64,000 nucleotides of DNA, from the NCBI GenBank assembly GCA_035543335.1, contig DASZZH010000003.1, forward strand, positions 1-64,000. Reading direction: 5' to 3'. Origin of the DNA: Burkholderiales bacterium. Lineage in GTDB: Bacteria; Pseudomonadota; Gammaproteobacteria; Burkholderiales; JAHFRG01. The translations under genes and the position numbers were made by a program. Of this stretch, positions 11,968 through 63,348 are shown one piece after another. Position 1 is the stretch's first letter. Each line of letters opens with the position of its first letter. The notes beneath the pieces were generated by a model, which had not been told where the DNA came from, did no database searches, and was given only the letters and a program-made list of their open reading frames with translations.

Positions 11968-12043
11968 TCCCCGATAGCTCAGTTGGTAGAGCGACGGACT
12001 GTTAATCCGCAGGTCGTAGGTTCGAGCCCTACTCGGGGAGCCA
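11968..12043 (+). tRNA. tRNA-Asn(GTT)
   Basis: The 76-base cloverleaf has acceptor arms TCCCCGA/TCGGGGA, discriminator G, an encoded CCA, anticodon GTT at 12001-12003, and a T-loop GGTTCGAGCC. Its 3' 45 bases form the left attachment repeat of the island that follows. Confidence 0.97.
11999..12043 (+). repeat. Left attachment repeat (att) inside tRNA-Asn
   Basis: These 45 bases from the anticodon loop to the CCA recur exactly at 30303-30347 and in decayed form at 20816-20859. An integrase remnant begins 14 bases beyond. This is the standard mark of site-specific integration into a tRNA 3' end. Confidence 0.9.
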
Positions 12044-12056
12044 AATAAATCAATCA

Positions 12057-12578
12057 CTAGCTCGAAACTAGCTTTTTCTTTTTAAGCTCACCGTGGGGAA
12101 AACGTGGAAAAATATCCACAACCTGCCCACCCCTGCCGGATTCGACACGCGAAGCAGCAACCGCTAGATGCTCAGTTCCATATTTCGCATAACGATCCAC
12201 CATGACGCGGGACTTCCAACCTCCAAGCTCTTTGAGCTCATCGGTGCTGGTGCCCCGTTGGCGATGCCAGGAAGCCCAAGTATGCCGAAGATCATGAAAG
12301 CGAAAATCCTGAAGCCCCGATTTCCTCACCGCTTCAAGCCAGCCGTTATTGCAAATACCCCGTCGGATCGGCTTTCCACGATAAGTAAAACAGTAGCTCT
12401 CATGCTTGCCGCGCTCCACTTCCAGCACCGCCACCGCATCACGGTTTAACGGAACACCTCGCGGCGTTCCATTCTTGGTACGGTCAAGCCAAGCCGTTTT
12501 ACGTTCCAAATCGACTCGGCTCCATTCCAAACCAGTAATCTCGCTCGAACGGCATCCTGTGGCAAGTGCAAAACGCAC
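12057..12578 (-). pseudogene. Tyrosine recombinase (integrase), C-terminal fragment
   Basis: The 173 readable residues are the catalytic half of a phage-type integrase: the first arginine in ATGCRSSEI, HDLRHTWASWH (HxxR), LGGW in place of the second His box, and the nucleophile tyrosine in MVDRYAKYG. The same frame continues upstream without a start to about 12660 (LISVCPPHLAAIV), so the N-terminal arm-binding and SAM-like domains are gone. It lies 14 bases from the tRNA-Asn 3' end, the usual place for the integrase of an island using that tRNA. With the N-terminus lost it is probably inactive. Confidence 0.85.
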
Positions 12579-12610
12579 AATCGCAGCTAAATGTGGCGGG
12601 CAAACCGATA

Positions 12611-12877
12611 TCAGCCGGTTAACTGGGCGACCGCTTTTATGCGATCGGTCTCGCCAAGGACATAAACGAGGAACGCTATCCCTTGCACAAGCGACAACTC
12701 ATAGACAGGCGCCCACCAGACACCGTCACCTAAAAGCTCGCGGAGTTTTTCTTTGGAGGCAGTTCGCAGTACTTCTTGCAGCTGCTTTGACTCCTGCCGA
12801 AACTCCTTCGACTTACGGATAAGGCGCTTGAACTGGTTCTCGGTGAGTTTTCCGTATTCCTTATCAACTATTGTCAT
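12611..12877 (-). CDS. Small hypothetical protein
   Basis: This 88-residue protein starts MTIVDKEYGKLTENQFK, has a charged helical first half (KSKEFRQESKQLQEVLRTASKEKLRELL) and a short hydrophobic stretch (LVQGIAFLVYVL). It overlaps the upstream remains of the integrase frame, so it lies at an old junction. Composition looks protein-like, but I do not recognise the family. It may be an intact island gene or a remnant. Confidence 0.45.
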   Translation of the reverse strand: MTIVDKEYGKLTENQFKRLIRKSKEFRQESKQLQEVLRTASKEKLRELLGDGVWWAPVYELSLVQGIAFLVYVLGETDRIKAVAQLTG

Positions 12878-17320: not shown

Positions 17321-17701
17321 TTGATCGGTAGGTTGGCCCAGTGGAGTGCCTACGAAACGAAGAAGTTTACGGCCCGGACGTCCGCTCATGGCCGAGACGT
17401 GACGGTCGCTAACGACCCAAAGCAGACACTCAGGGGACGACTGAACCCTGCAGACAGAGCGGTATCAGCGCAGCTCATTCGCAAGGTGTACGAAGCCGGT
17501 CCGCTCGCATGCCCCAAGTGCAAGGGGCCGATGCTAGTGATCGCGCTGATCGACGATCCGGCAGTCATCCGACGCATCCTCGAGCACCTGGGCCTGTGGG
17601 CGCCGCGGGCAATGCAACGAAGTCCGCCACTGGGTCCCGAGGCCTGGCCGGTGCACGCCAGCCTGCCCCTCACCTACCACCCGGTTCCCGACATCGCCTG
17701 A
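17321..17701 (+). pseudogene. IS91/IS801-type transposase, C-terminal remnant
   Basis: The 126 readable residues contain ACPKCKGPMLVIALIDDP and VIRRILEHLGLW, followed by PLTYHPVPDIA. This is the C-terminal tail of Y2/HUH transposases of the IS91 family as I know it. The catalytic N-terminal part with the two tyrosines is missing. IS91-like elements move by rolling-circle transposition and often pick up adjacent DNA, so this may mark the entry point of the VWA gene pair that follows. Confidence 0.7.
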
Positions 17702-17967
17702 GCGCAGGGCGGCGCGCCCCGCGCTTGACTTGGCGCTCCCGGGGACTGCATAATTTGCCGCAACTTCCGTTGCGAAGCGCCCCGGCAGCGCGGATCGGAC
17801 GGTGGAGCACGCGCGGGCAGCCCCGATCGCGCGCCATCGGGCGCACCGAGCACCAATCCGGCATCACTGCAGCGTTGCATTGGCACAGGATGCTGGCGAC
17901 GGGCGCATTGATTTTCCTATTTCTTCGTATGACAATCGCCTATATGCGGTAGTAAAAGGGGGTCCCC
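17702..17967. other. IS91-remnant downstream region
   Basis: GC-rich, with several short inverted repeats (for example GCGCGCCATCGGGCGC near 17829). It may hold the replication end of the IS91-type element. A GGGGG ribosome-binding site at 17959-17963 belongs to the next gene. Confidence 0.35.
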
Positions 17968-19419
17968 ATGACAGGCTCGCAATTCTGGATGATCTGGCCG
18001 GATAACGCCATGTTGTCGGCGCTGATCCTGTTTCTCATCGCCATGATTTTTCTTTACGCCGCGCGCACGCCCATGCACGGCCTCATCCGCTCCATCGGCC
18101 ATGCGCTCAGCGGCCCCCTGCGCATGGGCGCGCGCTGGCTGTTTGTGGCGGCAACAGAAATGAGGGAGCGCAACAAGTCCGTCTTGATGGCGCACGGACG
18201 CCAGGAGGTGGGCCAGCGCGTGGAGCGCGAATTCGAGCGCGTGGGCGTCCTGGTCACGCGCGACCTGCAGGGCTATCCGACCCTGCAGCGCAAGCTCCTC
18301 GAGGAGATCACACGCATCGAGGAGGATTACAAGAAGTGTGGCGAGGTGCCGCCGCCGCCTCCCGACTGGGTCGAGGCCGTCGCCGCGGTCGCCAACATCA
18401 AGTCAGGCGGCACCGAAGTGGTGCAGAAGATCCTCGACGAGATCCGCCAGTCGGTCAACAAAATCCACGACAAGGCCATTGCCGAGTATCGCCGCTCCTA
18501 CGAGACGCGACACAAGATCCTGGAAGGGTTCATGCCGTTCTGGCGGTCCGTCGACAAGACCATGACGCAGGTCGACAAGAAAGTGACCGGTCTGCAGGAA
18601 AGCGCCGGGGCCGTGGACGCGCAGATGGAAAGATACAAGCAGATCAACGCCAAGACCGACAAGGCCGAACATGCCCTGACGAACTCGGCATTCACCCAGT
18701 TCGCCATCGCGGCCATCGTCATGGCCGTGGCGATAGGCGGGGCGTTCATCAACTTCAAGTTGATCGCACTGCCGATGTCGGAAATGGTCGGCGCGGGCGA
18801 CTACATCACCTCGTCGCTGCGCACCTCCGAAGTGGCCGCGCTCGTGATCATCCTCGTCGAGGCGTCGATGGGGTTGTTCCTGATGGAGTCCCTGCGGATC
18901 ACGCACCTCTTCCCGCGCATTGCCAACCTGAACGACCGCATGCGGCATCGCATGATCTGGATATCGCTTGTCCTCCTGGTAACGCTGGCGGGAATCGAGG
19001 CCGCCCTCGCGCTGATGCGCGACATACTGATCGCCGACAAGCAGGCCCTGCTGCAAACGCTTGCCGCCACGCAGCCGACCGCGGCCACAGAAGGCTGGAT
19101 TGCGCGCATTCCGACCGCCGGCCAGATGGTATTGGGATTCATCCTGCCCTTCGCGCTGGCTTTTGTCGCGGTCCCGCTCGAGTCCTTCATCCATTCGACC
19201 AGGACCGTCGCCGGCGCGCTGCTGGTCATGCTGGTCCGCGCGCTGGGGTTCGCGCTGCGCATCCTCAGCAATCTGGCGCGGCAGACGAGCCGCGTGCTGA
19301 TCCACTTCTACGATCTGCTGATCATATTGCCGCTTCTCCTCGAGCACCTAGTAAGGGCGACGCGCGGCGGCGGGGCGGGGGTGAAGGCGCGACCCCTGGA
19401 TATCGGCGGCAAACTGTAG
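17968..19419 (+). CDS. Multi-pass membrane protein with large cytoplasmic helical region, unknown
   Basis: The protein has 483 residues. One membrane helix is near 14-33, a long charged helical region lies at 60-235 (QSVNKIHDKAIAEYRRSY, VDKKVTGLQESAG), and then come at least five more hydrophobic segments (about 245-265, 290-310, 330-350, 392-415, 418-440). I do not recognise the family. The next gene, 24 bases downstream, encodes a lipoprotein with a VWA-like fold, so the two probably form one envelope complex. The ribosome-binding site AAGGGGG is strong. GC and codon use are high and uniform, unlike the degraded neighbours, which suggests a working module. Confidence 0.75.
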   Translation: MTGSQFWMIWPDNAMLSALILFLIAMIFLYAARTPMHGLIRSIGHALSGPLRMGARWLFVAATEMRERNKSVLMAHGRQEVGQRVEREFERVGVLVTRDLQGYPTLQRKLLEEITRIEEDYKKCGEVPPPPPDWVEAVAAVANIKSGGTEVVQKILDEIRQSVNKIHDKAIAEYRRSYETRHKILEGFMPFWRSVDKTMTQVDKKVTGLQESAGAVDAQMERYKQINAKTDKAEHALTNSAFTQFAIAAIVMAVAIGGAFINFKLIALPMSEMVGAGDYITSSLRTSEVAALVIILVEASMGLFLMESLRITHLFPRIANLNDRMRHRMIWISLVLLVTLAGIEAALALMRDILIADKQALLQTLAATQPTAATEGWIARIPTAGQMVLGFILPFALAFVAVPLESFIHSTRTVAGALLVMLVRALGFALRILSNLARQTSRVLIHFYDLLIILPLLLEHLVRATRGGGAGVKARPLDIGGKL

Positions 19420-19443: not shown

Positions 19444-20109
19444 ATGATCAAGCGGGCGTTCCTGGCGTCATTGTCGATTCTCGGGCTGCTGGCGGCCCTT
19501 TCCGGCTGCGTTGACTCGCGCGGCCAGGCCCACGCGGTGTACATGCTCGTGGACACCTCCGGGACCTACGCACGCGAATCCGCAAAGGCCCAGATCATCA
19601 TCAATTACCTGCTGGGAACGCTCCAGTCCGGTGATTCGCTGGCAGTGGCGCGGGTGGAAAGCCGCAGCTTCAGCGAGAAGGACATTATCGCCAAGGCCAT
19701 GTTCGATACGCGCCCGTCCCAGGCCAATGCTCAGAAGCGCGCCTTCCGCGACAAGATCGACGCATTTCTCAAGACGGTCAAAGGCAGCGCCTATACCGAT
19801 ATAACCGGCGGGCTGATCCAGGGCGCGGAATTCCTGAACGAAACGGGGGCGGGGAAAAAGACTATCCTCATTTTCTCCGACATGCAGGAGGAACTCGATA
19901 ATGCGACGATCCGCAACTTCCCCATCAGCCTCAAGAACATCCGCGTGATCGCGGTCAATGTCACCAAGCTCAAGACGGACAATATCGATCCGAGGCGCTA
20001 CCTCGGCCGGTTGGAGGCTTGGCAGAAGCAGGTCGAGGCGGCCGGGGCGTCCGAGTGGAAGGTGATCAACGACATCGAACACCTCGATGCGATCTTTTCG
20101 AAAAGCTAG
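19444..20109 (+). CDS. VWA-like lipoprotein
   Basis: This 221-residue protein has a lipoprotein signal (LAALSGC, lipid cysteine at residue 22). A VWA-type fold follows: a hydrophobic strand into VDTSGTYA, a MIDAS-like variant of DxSxS in which the last serine is threonine. A conserved threonine region (YTDITGGLIQGAEFL) and the strand TILIFSDMQEE come next. VWA domains bind metal and mediate protein contacts. It is co-transcribed with the upstream membrane protein and may be its periplasmic partner. No secretion, chelatase or moxR-type ATPase genes lie nearby, so known VWA systems do not explain it. Confidence 0.75.
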   Translation: MIKRAFLASLSILGLLAALSGCVDSRGQAHAVYMLVDTSGTYARESAKAQIIINYLLGTLQSGDSLAVARVESRSFSEKDIIAKAMFDTRPSQANAQKRAFRDKIDAFLKTVKGSAYTDITGGLIQGAEFLNETGAGKKTILIFSDMQEELDNATIRNFPISLKNIRVIAVNVTKLKTDNIDPRRYLGRLEAWQKQVEAAGASEWKVINDIEHLDAIFSKS

Positions 20110-20572: not shown

Positions 20573-20815
20573 CAAATTCCTTGCTGCAGTTCCCTGCGCA
20601 AATCCGGCGTAGTGTGCATTGTAAGGTTTTGGTGGGTGCCGGGATAGTTCCGTTCGGCCGACAGCCGCAAACTCCACGTCGATCCAAACCGCAGCGAATT
20701 CGCGGGGCCCGTCGAGGTTCGCGGGGCGAACCAGCCTGCGGCTTTGCCGTAAGGGCTCTCGCAAAAGTTTCCAGGTCGGACGGGCGCTTTCCGACCCAAA
20801 GCGGTCATTCCCGCT

Positions 20816-20859
20816 GACTGTTAATCCGCAGGTCGAGGTTCGAGTCCTTGTCGGGGAGC
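20816..20859 (+). repeat. Decayed internal tRNA-Asn att copy
   Basis: These 44 bases align with the tRNA-Asn 3' part at 11997-12043 with one gap and about five mismatches (GACTGTTAATCCGCAGGTCG kept exactly). It divides the island in two, as expected if two elements integrated one after the other at the same tRNA and this older junction has drifted. Confidence 0.8.
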
Positions 20860-20881
20860 TGTTCTACGGATTAAAGGGCTG

Positions 20882-20986
20882 CAAGTGATCATCGATCAAT
20901 GCATCATGCACTATCACACCGAGCAGCCGCGTAGCAGCGTGGGCTACCGACTGCCGGCGCCGGCGGATTGGGTTGATTTTTCAATA
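20882..20986 (+). pseudogene. IS3-type transposase OrfB C-terminal remnant
   Basis: The frame reads QVIIDQCIMHYHTEQPRSSV then GYRLPAPADW, which matches the C-terminal end of IS3/IS481-type integrase-core transposases (YHTERPHSSLGYRPPAPE). No catalytic residues remain. It lies directly after the decayed att copy. Confidence 0.7.
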
Positions 20987-21618
20987 TCGCCTTGCGTTGA
21001 AGGATGTATTTGCTGATCGGGCCTTTCGTCCACTCAACAAACGAAGAGATATTATGCTCATCTCGCGCATGCGCGCATGCGCGCATGCGGGAAATCATAA
21101 ATTAATTTTGTTTCCGCACGCAAAATAATCACGTTGATTGCATTTAATTTAGATCATATCCCTGCGCAGCAAATTATTTTAGTGTTTGACGTTCCCGGTC
21201 CCGACATGTCAGTACTTTTCCAGCTTTTTTCCTCGGTCGGCCCCCGGCATAACATGGAAGCTGCTCTTCAGGCCCAGACGCATCTTGGAATGTTCGATGA
21301 CCGTGCCGCTTCCCGCGCTTAAAATTTTCTGTAGAATGTCATATCGTGACTTGTGTTTCCGTGACGCCGCAGCAGAACGGCCACCCACTGATTGCTGGTA
21401 TCGCGGGGCCAATCGCCGGGGGCGGTGAGAGTTCTTACATGCAAGAAGATGTGAAGAAAAATGAACAAAACATGAGTGTTTTATCAAGATGAGCAGATCG
21501 ATACTGAACGTGCGGCACAACCGAGGGAATCGGATCGGGGATTGCACTATGTCCGGGAGAGTTTGGGAAAAATGGACTTCATGACCCCTTTGAGGGCAGT
21601 TCCAGTGGGAAGCACGTC
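20987..21618. other. Gene-poor stretch upstream of the C1 operon
   Basis: About 630 bases without a convincing gene; short open frames on both strands look random. It contains a 26-base alternating purine-pyrimidine tract at 21064-21089 and AT-rich DNA at 21100-21180. The promoter of the operon that starts at 21619 probably lies here, but no clear -35/-10 pair was found. Confidence 0.5.
21064..21089. repeat. Alternating purine-pyrimidine tract, GCGCATGC x3
   Basis: Three exact tandem copies of GCGCATGC (21065-21088) make an unbroken alternating CG/CA/TG tract, a sequence type prone to form left-handed DNA or slip during replication. It lies about 530 bases before the C1 operon. Confidence 0.7.
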
Positions 21619-22230
21619 ATGATGACAGCGCCGACTTACGGGAAGTGGTGCAATCGCAAGTTGTGGACGGTGCACGAGGCGATCTGCCTGCTGTTGGCGA
21701 TAGAACCGGAAACCCCGTGGCTCAAGGATTCACACAGCGTTGGGGGCGCCAACCCGCTGATCGTGGCGCTCGAGCAATATGCCGAACTTGTCCGCGAAGC
21801 GATGATCGGCGGCACTCTGAAGCCGTTCAGCCGGGACGATCTGTCGCTGGCGGTGCCGGACCGTCGCGTAAACCCGCGCGAATTTCTCGAGTGGGCTCAA
21901 AGCCGGCAAATTGCTATCCCGAACGAGCTGGCCCCGGTGCTGGAGCAGGACCCGTTGCAGCGTCTGGCGGAGGGAATTGCAGGCGCCGAGTTGAGCGCCC
22001 GGCATTATTCTCGGCGTATCGTCGACCGCTTCCCGGATGCCCACGAGCAGGTCCTGGGCGCAGCCCTTGCAGTGCTCAGGAGCTTTCCCGAACGCTGTCG
22101 CGATGTCGCAGGCATACGGCGCATCATCGAGGACAATGCGTCGTTGATCTGGCCGGATACCCACAAGCTTCCGCTGCGGGCGGACGAGGTAGAGCGCCTG
22201 ATCGGCCGCTGGCTTAACCGCCTGGGCTGA
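21619..22230 (+). CDS. Hypothetical protein at the head of the C1 operon
   Basis: The protein has 203 residues. It starts MMTAPTYGKWCNRKLWTVHE and continues AICLLLAIEP, an opening seen in small helical proteins of unknown role (WTxxEAxxLLxxIxP). The C-terminus (WPDTHKLPLRADEVERLIGR) is helical. No membrane segment, metal site or known domain is visible. It is 43 bases upstream of the ferredoxin gene on the same strand, so it may belong to the operon, but the link to methanofuran chemistry is only positional. Confidence 0.6.
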   Translation: MMTAPTYGKWCNRKLWTVHEAICLLLAIEPETPWLKDSHSVGGANPLIVALEQYAELVREAMIGGTLKPFSRDDLSLAVPDRRVNPREFLEWAQSRQIAIPNELAPVLEQDPLQRLAEGIAGAELSARHYSRRIVDRFPDAHEQVLGAALAVLRSFPERCRDVAGIRRIIEDNASLIWPDTHKLPLRADEVERLIGRWLNRLG

Positions 22231-22273
22231 GAGGCTATCTCCGACCCTTCACTACAACACAATTGGAAACGTC

Positions 22274-22579
22274 ATGACCACCATTGTCACCGACAACTGC
22301 AAAGAATGCCGCTTCACCGACTGCGTCACGGTGTGCCCCGTTGCCTGTTTCCACGCTGACGACAACATGCTGTACATCGACAATCTGGTGTGCATCCAGT
22401 GCAGCGCCTGCATTCCGATATGCCCGGTGCACGCGATCTATGCCGATGACGACATCCCCGAGGACAAGCGCCAATACATCGAGATCAACGCCGAGCGCTC
22501 GCAGGCGCTCCCCGTGATAAGCGACAAGCAGGAGCCCTTGCCCGGCGCGCTCGAGCGCAAGACGGCACTCGGCTACTGA
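22274..22579 (+). CDS. fdxA: 7Fe ferredoxin (3Fe-4S plus 4Fe-4S)
   Basis: This 101-residue protein has cysteines at 9, 12, 17, 21, 25, 40, 43, 46 and 50. This is the pattern of Azotobacter ferredoxin I shifted by one residue: C9, C17 and C50 fit the 3Fe-4S cluster, and C21, C40, C43 and C46 fit the 4Fe-4S cluster. It is a low-potential, soluble one-electron carrier. Its place directly before a ferredoxin:NADP reductase and formylmethanofuran dehydrogenase subunits suggests that it takes electrons from the FmdB active site in place of the archaeal polyferredoxin subunits, none of which is encoded here. Confidence 0.93.
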   Translation: MTTIVTDNCKECRFTDCVTVCPVACFHADDNMLYIDNLVCIQCSACIPICPVHAIYADDDIPEDKRQYIEINAERSQALPVISDKQEPLPGALERKTALGY

Positions 22580-22591
22580 CACCAGCCTGCC

Positions 22592-23968
22592 ATGGACGCG
22601 CCAGGAACCGCGGGCAACCCGCTTCGCGTGGTGGTGGTGGGTGCCGGTCCAAGCGGCTTCTATGCCGCGGAGGCGCTGCTCAAGAGTGGTCAGACAGTAA
22701 GCGTCGACATGATCGAGCGGCTGCCCGCGCCCTACGGGCTGGTGCGCTATGGCGTGGCGCCGGACCATCCCAAGCTCAAGGAAGCGATCCTGGTCTACGC
22801 TGTGATCGCGCGCCTGCCCCACTTCAACCTGCTGGGTAATGTCGCGGTCGGACGCGACGTGACGGTCGAAGAGCTGCGCGCCCATTATCACGGCGTTATT
22901 TTTGCTTGCGGCGCGGAAACTGATCGCCGTCTCGGCGTCCCCGGCGAGGATCTCCCGGGCAGCCACACCGCCACCGAGTTCGTCGCCTGGTATAACGGCC
23001 ATCCGGACTATCGGGAGCGCAGCTTCGATCTATCTGCTGAAGTCGTGGCCATCGTCGGTCAGGGCAATGTCGCGGCAGACGTCTGCCGCATCCTTGCCAA
23101 GTCGGTCGATGAGCTCAAGGCCACAGACATCTCAGAGCATGCCCTGGATGCCTTGGCAGCTAGCCGCGTGCGGGAGATACATGTCATCGGGCGACGCGGC
23201 GCGGCGCAAGCCAAGTTCACCAACAAGGAATTGAAGGAACTGGGAGAGCTGGCCAGCTGCGATGATGTCGTCGATCCGCAAGACATGGAACTCAATTCCG
23301 AAAGCGTCGCTGAACTCGAAGTCAAGAGCAACTTCGTGAGTGCGAAAAACGTCGAGATCTTCCGCGCTTTCGCTGCCCGCGCCCCGACCGGCAAGCCGCG
23401 CCGCATTGTCTTTCACTTCCTGAAGAGCCCGGTTGCGCTCACCGGCGCCGCACGCATGGAGCAGGTCGTGTTGGGGCGCAATCGGCTCGAAGGCGCCCCC
23501 ATGCAGCAAGTGGCGCGGGAAACCGGTGAAACCGATCTGCTGCGGTGCGGGCTGCTGTTCCGCAGTATCGGATATTCCGGAGTGCCGATCCCGGGCGTCC
23601 CGTTCGACGCCCGCCGGGGCGTATTTCCGACCCAGGACGGGCGCATTGTAGACGGCAGCGGCGTGCCAGGGCTTTATGCGGCAGGCTGGATCAAGCGCGG
23701 ACCGACCGGGATCATCGGCACCAACCGGGCCGACAGCATAGCCACAGTCAAGTCACTGCTCGCCGACCTTCCCCGCTTGGCGCCCGCGGCGAAAGCCGGC
23801 GCCGAAGCTCTGGTGCCGCTGCTTGCATCGCGCGGCGTGCGCGTCGTAAACCTCGCTGACTGGCTCAAGATCGACGCAGCTGAAGTTGCGCGCGGCCAGC
23901 CCAAGGGCAAACCGCGCGAGAAGTTCACGCGCGTGGCCGAGATGCTTCAGTGCCTCGACGGTTCTTGA
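22592..23968 (+). CDS. Ferredoxin:NADP+ reductase, adrenodoxin-reductase type
   Basis: This 458-residue flavoprotein has an N-terminal FAD site (VVVVGAGPSGFYAAE), an NADP-binding site (VAIVGQGNVAADVCR) and the basic patch IHVIGRRG, which reads the NADP 2'-phosphate. The C-terminal AGWIKRGPTGIIGTNRADS is the signature of the FprA/adrenodoxin reductase family. It starts 12 bases after the ferredoxin gene and is surely co-expressed with it. In this operon it likely links formylmethanofuran oxidation to NADPH, or runs in reverse to supply reduced ferredoxin. Confidence 0.93.
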   Translation: MDAPGTAGNPLRVVVVGAGPSGFYAAEALLKSGQTVSVDMIERLPAPYGLVRYGVAPDHPKLKEAILVYAVIARLPHFNLLGNVAVGRDVTVEELRAHYHGVIFACGAETDRRLGVPGEDLPGSHTATEFVAWYNGHPDYRERSFDLSAEVVAIVGQGNVAADVCRILAKSVDELKATDISEHALDALAASRVREIHVIGRRGAAQAKFTNKELKELGELASCDDVVDPQDMELNSESVAELEVKSNFVSAKNVEIFRAFAARAPTGKPRRIVFHFLKSPVALTGAARMEQVVLGRNRLEGAPMQQVARETGETDLLRCGLLFRSIGYSGVPIPGVPFDARRGVFPTQDGRIVDGSGVPGLYAAGWIKRGPTGIIGTNRADSIATVKSLLADLPRLAPAAKAGAEALVPLLASRGVRVVNLADWLKIDAAEVARGQPKGKPREKFTRVAEMLQCLDGS

Positions 23969-24018
23969 CGGTGCGGGTTAGCCTATGTTCGAATGGATAG
24001 CTAAAGGAGAATACCATC

Positions 24019-24366
24019 GTGCCCGAAACCATGACACTGATCGGCGGACGCACGTCGCGGCAGGGCACTTCGCTCTGTGCCGGCAAGCTTGAAGCCGAAT
24101 ACATCGAGGTCTCTTCCACAGTGGAGATGAACGCGGAGGACATGGCGCGGCTCGGCCTCAAGGACGGCGACCCGGTACGCCTGCGTAGCGCTAGCGGTGA
24201 GGTGGACGTGCGTTGCAAGGGGCGAACGACCAAGGACCTGCCGCCCGGGCTGCTGTTCATCGCCTACGGCCCGCTTTCCAGCCGGCTGATGGCAAGCGAC
24301 ACGGCCGGCAGCGGCATGCCCATCTCCAAGCACATCGCGGTAACGGTCGAACCGGTCTCCGGGTAA
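24019..24366 (+). CDS. fmdD: Formylmethanofuran dehydrogenase subunit D (molybdopterin-binding)
   Basis: This 115-residue protein starts at GTG 24019 with AAGGAGA 9 bases upstream. It is a molybdopterin dinucleotide-binding beta-barrel of the FwdD/FmdD type: LKDGDPVRLRSASGEVDVR, then LFIAYGPLSSRLMASDT and GSGMPISKH. In archaeal Fwd/Fmd this subunit completes the cofactor pocket together with subunit B. I do not recall such a gene in the well-studied bacterial fhc operons, so its presence argues for a real molybdenum or tungsten cofactor here. It is 20 bases upstream of fmdB. Confidence 0.88.
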   Translation: MPETMTLIGGRTSRQGTSLCAGKLEAEYIEVSSTVEMNAEDMARLGLKDGDPVRLRSASGEVDVRCKGRTTKDLPPGLLFIAYGPLSSRLMASDTAGSGMPISKHIAVTVEPVSG

Positions 24367-24386
24367 GGCCAGGAGGGACGCACATC

Positions 24387-25724
24387 ATGAGCAACAACAT
24401 CCGCATCATCAATGACGCCACCTGCACCTTCTGCGGTTGCGTATGCGACGACATGCACCTTACTGTGGATCTGGACACCAACAAGATCACCAAGGCGGAG
24501 AACGCCTGTGTGCTCGGGCGCGCGTGGTTCAAGGAGCATGGTACCGAAGAAAACCGCCCTTTCGCGCTTATCGAAGGGCACGACGCGAGCACGGAGGAGG
24601 CGATCGAGGCCGCAGCACAAATTCTTGCCAATGCGCGCTTCCCCTTGATTTACGGACTGTCCGACACCACTTGTGAGGCGCAGCGCGAGGCTGTGGCGAT
24701 CGCCGACATGATCGGCGGCAACATAGATACCACCACCTCGGTCTGCCATGGCCCGTCCGGCATGGCGTTCGAGGGAGTAGGGGAAAGCACGGCGACCCTG
24801 GGCGAGATCCGTAACCGCGCCGACCTCGTGGTATTTTGGGGGGGCAATCCGGCGGAGTCCCATCCGCGCCTGTTTACGCGCTATACGGTGACATGCAAGG
24901 GGATGTACATCCCGCAGGGCAAGAAAGACCGCACCGTGGTGCTGGTGGACGTGCGCCGCAGTCCGAGCGCCGCGGTGGCGGACATTTTCGTGCAGGTGAA
25001 ACCCCAGCGCGATTTCGAGGTGCTGTGGGCGCTACGTGCGCTGGTTAAGGGGCGGCGGGTGGATCCCGCGATCGAGCAGGTGACCGGCGTCCCTCTCGCC
25101 ACACTGGAAGACCTGGCGCAGCGCATGAAGAACTGCCGCTTCGGGGCGCTGCTGTTCGGCATGGGGCTTACCATGACGCGGGGCCGGCATTTCAATTCTG
25201 GGGCGCTGCTTGCGCTCGCCACCGATCTCAACGAATTCACCCATTTCGTGGCTAAGCCGGTGCGCGGCCACGGCAACGTCACAGGTGCGGACAACGTGGT
25301 GTCATGGCAGACCGGCTTCCCGTTCGGCGTTAACCTAGGGCGCGGCTATCCGCGTTTCAACCCGGGCGAATTCACTACCGTGGACCTGCTGGGGCGGGGC
25401 GAAGCGGACGCGGCACTCATTATCGCAGCCGATCCCGCTGCCAATTTCCCGCAGGACGCCATCGAGCACCTGCGGCGCATTCCCGTGATCGTGCTGGATC
25501 CCAAACCTACCCACACCAGCAAGCTCGCACGGGTGGCGATCACGACTGCGACCTATGGCATCAGCGCGCCCGGTACGGTGTACCGCATGGACGATGTAGC
25601 CATTTCCCTGCGGCCGGCGTTGACGTCGCCCTATCCGAGCGACGAGGAAGTACTCACCCGGATCAAGGAGCGTGTGCGCGAACTGCTCGGCGGGAACCGC
25701 GTTCCCGCCATGAGCGCCGCATAA
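24387..25724 (+). CDS. fmdB: Formylmethanofuran dehydrogenase subunit B (catalytic, Mo/W)
   Basis: This 445-residue protein starts at ATG 24387 behind a strong AGGAGGG. N-terminal cysteines C13, C16, C20 and C41 (CTFCGCVC...AC) fit the 4Fe-4S cluster of FwdB. C120-H121 (SVCHGPSG) and R293 (PVRGHGN) match, in context and nearly in number, the tungsten-ligating Cys118, His119 and Arg288 that I recall from the archaeal FwdABCDFG structure. Length also matches FwdB (about 430). These residues reduce CO2 to formate reversibly. The Methylobacterium FhcB, as I recall it, lacks the cofactor site. All key residues being present suggests an active dehydrogenase. Confidence 0.92.
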   Translation: MSNNIRIINDATCTFCGCVCDDMHLTVDLDTNKITKAENACVLGRAWFKEHGTEENRPFALIEGHDASTEEAIEAAAQILANARFPLIYGLSDTTCEAQREAVAIADMIGGNIDTTTSVCHGPSGMAFEGVGESTATLGEIRNRADLVVFWGGNPAESHPRLFTRYTVTCKGMYIPQGKKDRTVVLVDVRRSPSAAVADIFVQVKPQRDFEVLWALRALVKGRRVDPAIEQVTGVPLATLEDLAQRMKNCRFGALLFGMGLTMTRGRHFNSGALLALATDLNEFTHFVAKPVRGHGNVTGADNVVSWQTGFPFGVNLGRGYPRFNPGEFTTVDLLGRGEADAALIIAADPAANFPQDAIEHLRRIPVIVLDPKPTHTSKLARVAITTATYGISAPGTVYRMDDVAISLRPALTSPYPSDEEVLTRIKERVRELLGGNRVPAMSAA

Positions 25725-25750
25725 AGGCGCCAGACAACCCCGGAGCCATC

Positions 25751-27412
25751 GTGCTGCACATCGCTAACGGTCGCGTGTATGACCCTGCGAATGGCGTCGA
25801 CGGCGAAGTTCGCGACGTCTACGTCGCCAACGGCAAGATCGTGAGCGACGTCCCGCCGGCGGCAAGGCGGATCGATGCCAAGGGGCTGGTGATCATGCCG
25901 GGCGGAGTGGACATGCATTGCCACATCGCCGGTCCCAAGGTCAACCTCGCGCGCAAGCTGCAGCCGGAGGACCACCGGTACGATGTGCACCCGCGCACGG
26001 CGTTCACCCGCTCCGGCGTCGGCGGCACTGTTCCGTCCACCTTCGCCACCGGTTACCGCTATGCCCTGCTCGGTTACACCACAGCCATGGAGGCGGCAGT
26101 GCCTCCCATCGGCGCGCGCCACACGCTGGAGGAATTCCACGACACGCCCGTCATCGACAAGGGCTTCTACATACTGATGGGCAACAACGTGCTGCTCTAC
26201 AAGCTGCTGGAACAGGGGCGGCGCGAGGAATTCCGCAACGCGCTCGCGTGGTGGCTCGCGGCAACCAAGGCGTACACCGCCAAGCTCGTCAATCCCGGGG
26301 GCGATGAGGCTTGGAAGGGCCGGCGCAATGCCAATATCACCAGCCTGGACGAGAAGATCGAGTCCTTCGAGCTGACCCCGCGACGGGTGATCGGGGCGCT
26401 CATCGAGGCGGTAGACGAGCTGGGATTACCGCACCCGGCGCACATTCACTGCAACAACCTCGGGCATTCCGGCAACTACGCCACTACCCTGGAGACCATG
26501 CGCATTGCCGAGGGGCATCGCGCTCACATCGCGCATATCCAATTCCACAGCTACGGCGAGGTGCCCGGCAAGTCCAGCCACAACCCGACTTCGCGGGCGA
26601 AGGAGATCGCGGAATACGTCAACACGCACCCGAACATCAGCGCCGACGTGGGCCAGGTGATGTTCGGCAAGGCGACGATCATGACGGCGGACGCGCCGCT
26701 CGCCTACATGCTTTCGCGCTATGCCGGTGGCAAATGGGTGAATGCCGACACCGAGCACGAATCCAGCTGCGGCATCCTTCCCTTCGCCTACCAGGACCGG
26801 GTGTATACCCATGCCCTGCAATGGGCGATCGGGCTCGAATTGTTCCTGCTCTCGAAAGATCCCTGGCGAATGGTGTTCTCCACCGACCATCCCAACGGCG
26901 GCTCGTTCATGACCTATCCGCGGCTCATCCGCCTGCTGATGGATCGGGAATTCCGTAAGGAGGAGATGCGCAAGATCAATCCGAGGGCGTTGCGGCAGAC
27001 GGCGCTCGCCGATGGCCTGGACCGCGAGTACACGCTCCAGGAGATCGCTATCATCACCCGCGCAGGCCCGGCCCGGCTGCTGGGCCTGGCGAACAAGGGG
27101 CATCTCGGGCCGGGGGCGGACGCCGACATCACGATCTACGACGAGCACGAGGACAAGGAGCGCATGTTCGGGGCGCCGCGCTACGTCATCAAGGACGGGC
27201 AGGTGGTCGTCGAGGACCACGAGTTCCGGGCGGAACACCAGGGGCGAATACTACATGTGTCTCCCGATTACGATCCGCAAATTGTGGAGGTGATCCGCCC
27301 GTTCTTCGACGATTACTATTCGATCCGCTTCAACAACTATGCGGTGGACGACAGCTACCTCGGCAAGCACGAGGTCATCCCGACCGCCGCGCAGCGCGCT
27401 CAAGCGACCTGA
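25751..27412 (+). CDS. fmdA: Formylmethanofuran dehydrogenase subunit A (metal amidohydrolase)
   Basis: The 553-residue protein begins at GTG 25751. It is an amidohydrolase-fold subunit that interconverts formate plus methanofuran and formylmethanofuran at a binuclear metal centre. Visible ligands are H56 and H58 (DMHCHIAG), K178 (AKLVNPGGDEAW) for the carboxylated lysine, H231/H233 (PAHIHCNN), further histidines in IAHIQFHSYGE, and D379 (VFSTDHPNGG). Length and K178 match archaeal FwdA closely. It is shared by dehydrogenase and Fhc complexes, so it does not by itself decide between them. The next gene starts one base after its stop. Confidence 0.95.
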   Translation: MLHIANGRVYDPANGVDGEVRDVYVANGKIVSDVPPAARRIDAKGLVIMPGGVDMHCHIAGPKVNLARKLQPEDHRYDVHPRTAFTRSGVGGTVPSTFATGYRYALLGYTTAMEAAVPPIGARHTLEEFHDTPVIDKGFYILMGNNVLLYKLLEQGRREEFRNALAWWLAATKAYTAKLVNPGGDEAWKGRRNANITSLDEKIESFELTPRRVIGALIEAVDELGLPHPAHIHCNNLGHSGNYATTLETMRIAEGHRAHIAHIQFHSYGEVPGKSSHNPTSRAKEIAEYVNTHPNISADVGQVMFGKATIMTADAPLAYMLSRYAGGKWVNADTEHESSCGILPFAYQDRVYTHALQWAIGLELFLLSKDPWRMVFSTDHPNGGSFMTYPRLIRLLMDREFRKEEMRKINPRALRQTALADGLDREYTLQEIAIITRAGPARLLGLANKGHLGPGADADITIYDEHEDKERMFGAPRYVIKDGQVVVEDHEFRAEHQGRILHVSPDYDPQIVEVIRPFFDDYYSIRFNNYAVDDSYLGKHEVIPTAAQRAQAT

Positions 27413-27413
27413 C

Positions 27414-28298
27414 ATGCTGATCGACGGCGTCACCATCGACGATACCTTCGCGGAAGCGTTCACGATGTGGGGCGCACGGGTGCTTATCACCGCCGAGAAC
27501 GAGAAATGGGCGCTCGCGGCGGCGCGCGCCATGACCGGCTTCGCGACGTCGGTGATCGGATGCAAATGCGAGGCCGGCATCGAGCGCACGGTGCCGGCCG
27601 CCGAGACTCTCGATAGGCGGCCGGGAATAGCGGTGCTTCTCTTCGCGACCAGCGCGGACGGCCTGGGCAAGCGGCTCGTCGAGCGCGTCGGGCAATGCGT
27701 CATGACGTGCCCGACCACTGCCTGCTATAACGCGCTGCGCGGCGAGAACACAGTGGTCGTCGGCGGATCGCTCCGCTATTTTGGTGACGGCTTCCAGGCA
27801 AGCAAGCTTCTGAACGGGCGCCGCTTCTGGCGCGTGCCGGTCATGGACGGGGAGTTTGTGGTCGAGGACCGCTTCGGCGTTCAACCCGCCGTGGGTGGCG
27901 GCAACCTGCTCCTTCTGGGCGAGGACGTGGCGCCGACACTCGCCGCGGCAGAGGCCGCGGTCGACGCCATGCGGCAGGTTCCCGGAGTGATCCTGCCGTT
28001 TCCCGACGGCGTCGTGCGCAGCGGCAGCAAAGTGGGCTCGCGTTACAAGTCGGTCATCGCGTCCACCAACGACGCTTACTGCCCGACGCTGCGCGCCGTC
28101 TCCGAAGGTTCCCAGATTCCCGCGGACGTCTCCTGCGTGCTCGAGATCGTGATCGACGGTCTCGACCTTGAAGCGGTCGAAGAAGCCATGCGGCGTGGGC
28201 TTGCCGCGGCGCCGCGTCCGGGGCTTCGTCGGATCTCGGCCGGCAACTATGGGGGCAACCTGGGACAGTACAAGATCGAGTTGCGCAGCTTGCTATAG
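27414..28298 (+). CDS. fhcD: Formylmethanofuran:tetrahydromethanopterin formyltransferase
   Basis: The 294 residues start at ATG 27414, one base after the fmdA stop. It is a full-length Ftr/FhcD family member: EAFTMWGARVLITAENEKWA, then GFATSVIGCKCEAGIE, CPTTACYNAL and PDGVVRSGSKVGSRYK. It moves the formyl group between methanofuran and tetrahydromethanopterin. In archaea Ftr is a separate soluble enzyme; in bacteria it is part of the Fhc complex. It shows that the host uses, or used, a tetrahydromethanopterin C1 pathway, whose other genes (fae, mtdB, mch) are not in this window. Confidence 0.95.
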   Translation: MLIDGVTIDDTFAEAFTMWGARVLITAENEKWALAAARAMTGFATSVIGCKCEAGIERTVPAAETLDRRPGIAVLLFATSADGLGKRLVERVGQCVMTCPTTACYNALRGENTVVVGGSLRYFGDGFQASKLLNGRRFWRVPVMDGEFVVEDRFGVQPAVGGGNLLLLGEDVAPTLAAAEAAVDAMRQVPGVILPFPDGVVRSGSKVGSRYKSVIASTNDAYCPTLRAVSEGSQIPADVSCVLEIVIDGLDLEAVEEAMRRGLAAAPRPGLRRISAGNYGGNLGQYKIELRSLL

Positions 28299-28346
28299 GG
28301 CGCAGATGAAATCCGTTAGCATGCGCCAGCCACGCAAGGTTATGAC

Positions 28347-29159
28347 ATGAGCCTCACGCTTACCCTGCACACCCAACCCAATGTTCCTCTCGAGGCGGAG
28401 ACGCTTATCCCGCAGCGGTTCGAAGGAATGACTGCCACGCAGGTCGCCGCTGCCAAGGTCCTTTACGGCAACCAGCAGGCCGCACTCGGGGATTTCTTCC
28501 GAATCGACGGCCGACCCGACGGCGAGTTGCGCATCGTCGGCGATGTTTTTCGGGTAAAGATGATTGGCGCCGGCATGACGCACGGCCGGATCGTTATCGA
28601 GGGCAACGCCGGTATGCATCTCGGTGCCGCCATGAGCGGCGGCGAAATATTGGTCGAGGGCAACGCCACAGATTGGGTGGGTGCGGGGATGTCGGGCGGG
28701 CGGATCGTGGTGAAGGGCAACGCCGGTCATCTGGTGGGTAGCGCCTTGCGCGGCGAAGACGTTGGCACTCGCGGTGGGGAGATCATCATCCATGGCAACG
28801 CCGGCAACGAGGTCGGCAGCGGAATGCGGCGCGGCCTCGTTGCGGTAGGTGGGAACAGTGGTGATTTCACTGGAGTCAACATGCTGGCCGGCACTGTAGT
28901 CGTCCTCGGTCGGCTCGGATGGCGGACCGGCGCCGGCATGAAGCGCGGAACGGTCGCCTCGTGCCAGCCGGCGGAACTGCTACCCACCTTCGGCTACGCC
29001 TGCACCTACCGTCCGGTGGCGTTGCGACTGGTGCTCGGTTACCTGCGCGAACGAGGGCTTGCCATCACCGACGAGCAGCTCGCCGGGCGCTACCGCCGCT
29101 GGAGCGGGGACGGGGTCGAGACAAGCCGCGGGGAAGTATTGCTTCTGGAGGAAGGCTGA
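28347..29159 (+). CDS. fmdC: Formylmethanofuran dehydrogenase subunit C
   Basis: This 270-residue protein is a right-handed beta-helix made of glycine-rich repeats (HGRIVIEGNAGMHLGAAMSG, GGRIVVKGNAGHLVGSALRG, GGEIIIHGNAGNEVGSGMRR). The fold is shared with the C-terminal domain of glutamate synthase. In Fwd/Fmd and Fhc, subunit C packs on subunit A and Ftr and scaffolds the complex. It is the last gene of the operon; the order B-A-D-C is that of bacterial fhc operons as I recall. No clear terminator was found after the stop. Confidence 0.95.
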   Translation: MSLTLTLHTQPNVPLEAETLIPQRFEGMTATQVAAAKVLYGNQQAALGDFFRIDGRPDGELRIVGDVFRVKMIGAGMTHGRIVIEGNAGMHLGAAMSGGEILVEGNATDWVGAGMSGGRIVVKGNAGHLVGSALRGEDVGTRGGEIIIHGNAGNEVGSGMRRGLVAVGGNSGDFTGVNMLAGTVVVLGRLGWRTGAGMKRGTVASCQPAELLPTFGYACTYRPVALRLVLGYLRERGLAITDEQLAGRYRRWSGDGVETSRGEVLLLEEG

Positions 29160-29314
29160 TCGGCGCGCGTTAGCGCGTCCGCTGCAATGAAATGTTAGCC
29201 AACGCGAACGGGGTTCGATGCATTCGCGCCTACGACAGTGTTCCACGGCCGCACGCGCCACCGCGTTACGAGCCCATGTTTGACATACGGATCGGCTGCG
29301 TTGTTAAACGCCGT

Positions 29315-30161: not shown

Positions 30162-30260
30162 AGTGCCCAGTTTTGCCCTGGTTGGGGACCCAATCCAAAC
30201 GTAGCAAAAACGTAGCACGCTTGGCGAGCGTTGGCGAGTGTTGGCGAGTGTTGGCGAGTG
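30162..30260. repeat. Island right-end module: 32-bp motif plus direct repeats
   Basis: 30162-30193 is a 32-base motif (AGTGCCCAG...GGTTGGGGACCCA) with relatives at 32329, 32490 and 60257. Next come two copies of AAACGTAGCA (30197-30206 and 30208-30217, period 11), then four copies of TTGGCGAGTG or TTGGCGAGCG (30221-30260). The att repeat follows 42 bases later. The set resembles arm-type integrase binding sites beside an att core. A similar set, mirrored, lies next to the tRNA-His att fragment at 60223-60288. Confidence 0.7.
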
Positions 30261-30302
30261 AGGGCGGGCCCAACTTAGGTTAAAAATAGCTACTTATAGC
30301 GC

Positions 30303-30347
30303 CTGTTAATCCGCAGGTCGTAGGTTCGAGCCCTACTCGGGGAGCCA
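30303..30347 (+). repeat. Right attachment repeat (att) of the tRNA-Asn island
   Basis: These 45 bases are identical to 11999-12043, from the anticodon loop to the CCA of tRNA-Asn. It lacks the 5' half and cannot make a tRNA. It marks the right border of an 18.3-kb island. Confidence 0.92.
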
Positions 30348-32255: not shown

Positions 32256-32328
32256 CCCGACCATCGCTGCAGAGGTTTTCATGAAAATCACCCCCGCACA
32301 CTATCCGTGTTTTCCATGAACCTGTTCT

Positions 32329-32521
32329 GTGGCTCCCCAACCAGGGCAAATCTGGGCACTGGCAGGAGCGGCTAAGACTTCCCTAACGTACCAGCTCAAC
32401 GGGCGTCGCTTGCACGCGGGCGCGTACGAATTTGCTCGTGCGCCCCAGTGAAGCGATTCGTTAAATTAGCTGCACCGTCAATACCCAAGAGTGCCCAGAT
32501 TTGCCCTGGTTGGGGAGCCAC
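32329..32521. mobile_element. MITE-like element with perfect 32-bp inverted ends
   Basis: The ends at 32329-32360 (GTGGCTCCCCAACCAGGGCA...) and 32490-32521 are exact complements over 32 bases, with 129 bases between. The same motif occurs singly at 30162-30193 and 60257-60288 near att fragments, always with the GTGG end facing the att core. This pair may be a short internally deleted element made of two element ends. No target duplication is visible. No protein is encoded. Confidence 0.7.
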
Positions 32522-32560
32522 AACTCTGGACTGCACTCAACGGCAACTCTCGGTAACTGG

Positions 32561-60073: not shown

Positions 60074-60119
60074 ATGGGGTGGACGATGGGATTCGAACCC
60101 ACAACAACTGGAATCACAA
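60074..60119 (-). repeat. tRNA-His 3' fragment (att of the second element)
   Basis: These 46 bases are identical to 63272-63317, the 3' half of tRNA-His plus one flanking base. The 5' half is absent. It marks the left border of an element of about 3.2 kb whose right border is the intact tRNA-His. Confidence 0.88.
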
Positions 60120-63272: not shown

Positions 63273-63348
63273 TGGGGTGGACGATGGGATTCGAACCCAC
63301 AACAACTGGAATCACAATCCAGGACTCTACCTTTGAGCTACGTCCACC
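63273..63348 (-). tRNA. tRNA-His(GTG)
   Basis: The cloverleaf has the extra 5' G at 63348 paired with C, acceptor GTGGACG/CGTCCAC, anticodon GTG within GGATTGTGATTCC, an encoded CCA, and T-loop GGTTCGAATCC. Last gene of the Pro-Arg-His tRNA operon; its 3' half is the att site. Confidence 0.96.

Follow-up and report, generated by a model that had tools for sequence, protein, structure and literature searches.

A variant tRNA-Asn 3' half inside a tRNA-Asn(GTT) island of a Burkholderiales bacterium is one of a dispersed, genus-specific set

The stretch of DNA analysed here (64,000 nucleotides of contig DASZZH010000003.1, hereafter referred to as the window) contains an intact tRNA-Asn(GTT) gene and a matching 3' fragment of it that has the same orientation, the distance between the two lying within the 2-200 kb criterion for islands. 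The island thus delimited (12.04-30.35 kb) begins at the 3' end of the tRNA gene and carries an integrase gene, a left segment, a second tRNA-Asn fragment at 20.8 kb and a right segment that includes a one-carbon (C1) unit (Table 1).

Table 1. Features of the tRNA-Asn island and their positions in the window.
Feature	Positions	Strand	Basis or remark
tRNA-Asn(GTT), integration target	11968..12043	+	ARAGORN; synteny with G001 on the 5' side
Tyrosine integrase, truncated	12057..12695	-	Pfam Phage_integrase, E 1e-29; tblastn extent
Arm-like motif CGTGGGGAAAACGTGG, left end	12092..12107	+	One of two sites in the window; 16-mer on C15
Part of a dispersed repeat (CGACCCAAAGCGGTCATTCCCGCTGAC)	20786..20818	+	Also precedes tRNA-Asn halves on C40, C35, C23 and C15
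Variant tRNA-Asn 3' half	20816..20859	+	17-mer and 22-mer pattern matches; BLAST; comparison with C15
C-terminal remnant of an IS3-family transposase, fused to the half	20852..20974	+	Same fusion on C15 and on C75 of G002
C1 unit: oxidoreductase plus FhcB, FhcA, FhcD (FTR) and FhcC	21065..29172	+	Present in the three species of the genus; flanks differ
Island right end: arm-like motif (30200-30215), 10-bp direct repeats (30221-30270)	30162..30302	+	
Displaced tRNA-Asn 3' half, right att copy of the island	30303..30347	+	Exact over 45 bp

The integrase gene at 12.2 kb, which lies inside the island and adjoins the tRNA gene, is the only one found on the contig, and there is none in the 20.9-30.3 kb segment. 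It lacks about 140 N-terminal residues relative to the integrases on contigs C15 and C23, as judged from the extent of the tblastn matches. The tandem motif CGTRGSRAAAACGTRG has two sites in the whole window, one beside the tRNA gene (12092) and the other to the left of the exact right copy (30200); the pattern itself was built from the two ends, and 0.41 chance matches are expected with up to two mismatches. The left-end 16-mer recurs unchanged in two sequences resembling element ends on C15. The right end (30.16-30.30 kb) is homologous to C15:3081-3218 and to a sequence at 24.0 kb on C2, the latter abutting a tRNA-Lys half. To the left of 20.8 kb, searches found neither the arm motif nor homology to the right end. 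We infer that the integrase binds the paired arm-like motifs at 12092 and 30200. In the empty-site comparison, which bears on the putative right border of the island, the tRNA-Asn gene of the sister species G001 is followed by DNA that is absent from, and unrelated to, the right flank of the window, and it is only from 41.2 kb onward that the backbone is shared with certainty. An insert reaching 39.4 kb, proposed from a cytochrome c gene lying beside the tRNA-Asn gene of G001, was dropped, because the cytochrome c gene of the window is nearer to another paralog (82% vs. 60% amino-acid identity).

With its intact tRNA gene, adjoining tyrosine integrase, exact 3' fragment at the far end and crossover in the anticodon loop, the island resembles the anticodon-loop subsite class described by Islander (PMC4383910); it differs in its truncated integrase and in the additional, diverged tRNA fragment that it contains.

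The fragment at 20.8 kb, identified in the original prediction as a partial tRNA-Asn 3' half with one gap, aligns with the tRNA gene at 41 of 45 positions by BLAST, far above chance. The 17-mer TGTTAATCCGCAGGTCG is exact at 12000, 20819 and 30304 (0.13 chance matches expected from shuffles with up to three mismatches), and a 22-mer from the T-arm and acceptor occurs at 12019 (exact), 20837 (three mismatches) and 30323 (exact), with 0.00 expected. Given these expectations for the two parts of the pattern, the copy is real. Over the segment compared, 8 of 45 positions depart from the tRNA-Asn sequence, against only 1 of 44 in the comparison with C15:3039-3080. The substitutions to the right of GGTTCGAG may represent either IS3 sequence or drifted tRNA sequence.

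Judged by the named proteins nearest to its C1 oxidoreductase, the genome is that of an uncultivated betaproteobacterium. Searches of the whole genome (2.25 Mb, 41 contigs) identified at least 16 partial copies of tRNA-Asn in addition to the gene itself, on ten contigs: two on the contig of the window (C3; 20.8 and 30.3 kb), two each on C2, C15 and C35, three on C23 and one each on C22, C40, C11, C20 and C30, all these counts being lower bounds. Nearly all the halves begin in the anticodon loop (TTAATCC) and finish at or near GGGGAGCCA. Integrase genes or element ends adjoin several of them (on C11, C23, C2 and C15), and the half on C11 starts about 10 bp past the integrase stop codon. In a comparison of 60 genomes, one or two such halves were present in a few other genomes among the matches listed. 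The tRNA-Asn halves form a genus-specific dispersed set. They recall REP/REPIN-type repeats in being short intergenic sequences repeated across a genome, but differ in having a tRNA-Asn 3' half as their core, boundaries in the anticodon loop and, in those copies that were folded, no strong hairpin. The secondary site of SGI1 between sodB and purR (PMC2297512) is also similar, in that att-like sequences lie away from the primary target, several of them beside integrases or element ends; here, however, the halves occupy at least 16 places and are putative sites only.

It could be argued that the halves belong to a miniature, MITE-like transposed repeat (half-spacer-half) that is mobilized by a transposase and does not function as an attachment site, the 20.8-kb copy being one such insertion. 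Composites of precisely this form are found on C40 and C35, related copies exist in G001 and G002, and the genome is rich in short inverted-repeat elements. Nevertheless, we consider this explanation very unlikely: the left boundaries of the copies vary right at the anticodon loop, several copies adjoin integrase genes or element ends, and the repeats and composites tested fold no better than shuffled sequences. Against Rfam, the only match of the repeats themselves was to tRNA and fell below the threshold.

Other mobile elements were observed in the window and elsewhere in the genome. One MITE-like element of about 195 bp (32328-32522) has perfect 33-bp terminal inverted repeats (GGCTCCCCAACCAGGGCAAATCTGGGCACT...), and its ends occur at more than 10 other genome sites. 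The tRNA-His gene (63273-63347, minus strand) has an exact 45-bp 3' half at 60075-60119 (minus strand); the 60.1-63.3 kb interval therefore looks like a second, small tRNA-targeted insertion, and no integrase was detected within it. On C2, a tRNA-Lys island with its own integrase (13.5-24.1 kb) has two tRNA-Lys and two tRNA-Asn halves stacked at its far end. The tRNA-Arg(CCG) gene at C15:8290-8365 has an adjacent integrase, and a 98% tRNA-Arg half at C23:6469-6513 lies beside a second integrase; these loci make a better case than the window for a tandem array at a single tRNA. Finally, the ends of C35 overlap exactly over 141 bp, although the core genes dfp and radC are present; a circular molecule was set aside in view of these chromosomal genes, and the overlap is probably an effect of assembly.

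The left flank of the 20.8-kb half belongs to another dispersed repeat, which matches C40 (88% over 74 bp, E 7e-19), with a second match of 94% over 49 bp. At an E value of 1e-5 it was found in G000 and in the sister species G002, weaker copies exist in G001, and only matches of 25-30 bp were obtained in 2 of 248 other genomes of the order searched. Directly to the right are the remains of an IS3-family transposase, consistent with the IS3-type debris originally reported there. The half and this tail together are common to the window and C15 (88.5% over 157 bp), and the same half-tRNA/IS3 fusion is found on C75 of G002 (84% over 153 bp), which shares both the deletion and GAGTCCTTGTCGGGGAG with the 20.8-kb copy. 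The IS3 tail of the window is 86% identical to that on C15 and 82% identical to that of G002; the conserved C-terminal motif of the transposase is recognizable, the G002 tail matching annotated IS3 transposases at 54.5%. The left flanks of the three fusions are unrelated, and each breaks off at the anticodon-loop core. Because C15 and G002 have both the changes and the IS3 fusion, the changes were not acquired at the 20.8-kb locus, which contradicts the proposal that the copy is an att junction decayed in place.

The two segments on either side of the half have separate histories, as had been proposed. The three species of the genus all carry the C1 unit, at 83-92% DNA identity across shared stretches and with different flanks in each. 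G001 and G002 have the unit but not the left segment: searches for the 483-aa gene of that segment found no copy in either species (G002 is 85% complete), and the DNA searched around their C1 units contained no tRNA-Asn half. Conversely, two genes of the left segment (the 483-aa/221-aa pair) occur together in 11 other genomes of the order, with no C1 unit beside them. The "VWA" label originally given to the left segment was not borne out, as Pfam detected no VWA domain in the genes tested (17509-17952, 17968-19419 and 19444-20109). A single locus, in G025, links the acyltransferase gene at 34.3 kb with the 483-aa gene; this was taken as a coincidence. The C1 unit is the second formylmethanofuran dehydrogenase/FTR set of this genome; the other lies on C25, and the two FTR sequences are 59% identical. 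In dinucleotide composition, each segment is at a distance of 70-90 from the backbone, whereas the distance between the left and right segments (45.5) is within the range for chunks of backbone (mean 37, maximum 48.7), so the comparison of 12.05-20.8 kb with 20.9-30.3 kb, suggested as a check, did not separate them.

These results bear on the model from which the analysis started, in which two successive integrations at the tRNA-Asn gene placed the newer element nearest the gene and left the old 20.8-kb junction to drift. The position of the copy at the joint, its orientation, which is that of the outer halves, and the occurrence of the two segments apart from each other in relatives are all in keeping with this model. 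The search for relatives carrying a single segment, however, upheld the independence of the segments and not two integrations at this tRNA. A second integrase is absent, the 20.8-kb copy has no arm-like motif, its left flank is a dispersed repeat rather than an element end, C15 and G002 have the same changes and the same IS3 fusion, and composition is similar in the two segments. We therefore regard successive integration as highly improbable. The published rule for tandem islands assigns to every member its own integrase and its own tRNA fragment (PMC4383910). Each segment does end in a tRNA fragment (20.8 and 30.3 kb), but the contig has a single integrase, at 12.2 kb, and element-type ends are lacking at the inner junction; by this rule, the island is not a tandem array. 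Similarly, three att copies in one orientation at one locus are shared with SGI1 arrays (PMC2297512) and with the tandems of Islander, from which the island differs in having one integrase and, as its inner copy, a dispersed chimera with no element ends around it.

A different form of double insertion was also considered. The right segment (20.82-30.3 kb) might be an integrase-less element moved in trans, with an att half that was already a half/IS3 chimera; on entering the att copy at the far end of an earlier element (12.04-20.8 kb), it would have left its own half at 20.8 kb and the older, exact half at 30.3 kb. Such an element would account for the prior divergence of the 20.8-kb half, for the direct tRNA halves flanking the segment at both ends and for the different flanks of the C1 unit in three species, and the junction it predicts between the right end and the half-IS3 sequence is found on C15. 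The segment nevertheless has no integrase, the arm-like motif is absent from both inner ends, the C1 units of G001 and G002 have no tRNA-Asn half in the DNA searched, and the two parts of the C15 junction have diverged to different extents (24% for the arm part, 11.5% for the half-IS3 part). This explanation is unlikely, albeit less so than the two alternatives discussed above.

We favor, as the probable explanation, a single tRNA-Asn island from 12.04 to 30.35 kb, in which the 20.8-kb copy is an internal passenger and recombination at dispersed tRNA halves and IS debris brought the cargo together. The tyrosine integrase would have inserted the island by a crossover at the anticodon loop of tRNA-Asn, with the exact 45-bp half at 30.3 kb closing the far side. 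The 20.8-kb half would have become fused to the IS3-transposase tail and gained its changes before arriving here, and would have been joined at its anticodon-loop core to another dispersed repeat, the IS3 tail and the C1 operon entering behind it. The joint itself appears to have been made by recombination at the core, either driven by an integrase or homologous over about 17 bp. Several points count against a single island: the half sits exactly at the joint of two modules with separate histories, as a true att junction would; the right-end/half-IS3 junction on C15 is the circular joint expected of a separate right element; at the putative right border, the comparison with G001 showed other DNA after tRNA-Asn in place of an empty site; and the arm motif pattern came from the very ends that it marks. 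However, as the 20.8-kb half is one of at least 16 and had changed before its arrival, it does not by itself prove two successive island insertions.

Internal tRNA fragments are easily taken for the junctions of tandem islands, and this fragment, which had diverged beforehand, calls for caution in the calling of island boundaries. The scattered tRNA halves are of greater interest than the island, the biology of which is ordinary. It is conceivable, albeit doubtful at present, that in this betaproteobacterial genus the dispersed tRNA-Asn 3' halves serve as a network of secondary sites for attachment or recombination, at which integrases acting in trans move cargo, such as the C1 (formylmethanofuran) operon, between loci. 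If the halves do recombine, they would provide a route by which the operon for a whole one-carbon pathway could shift between loci in closely related species.
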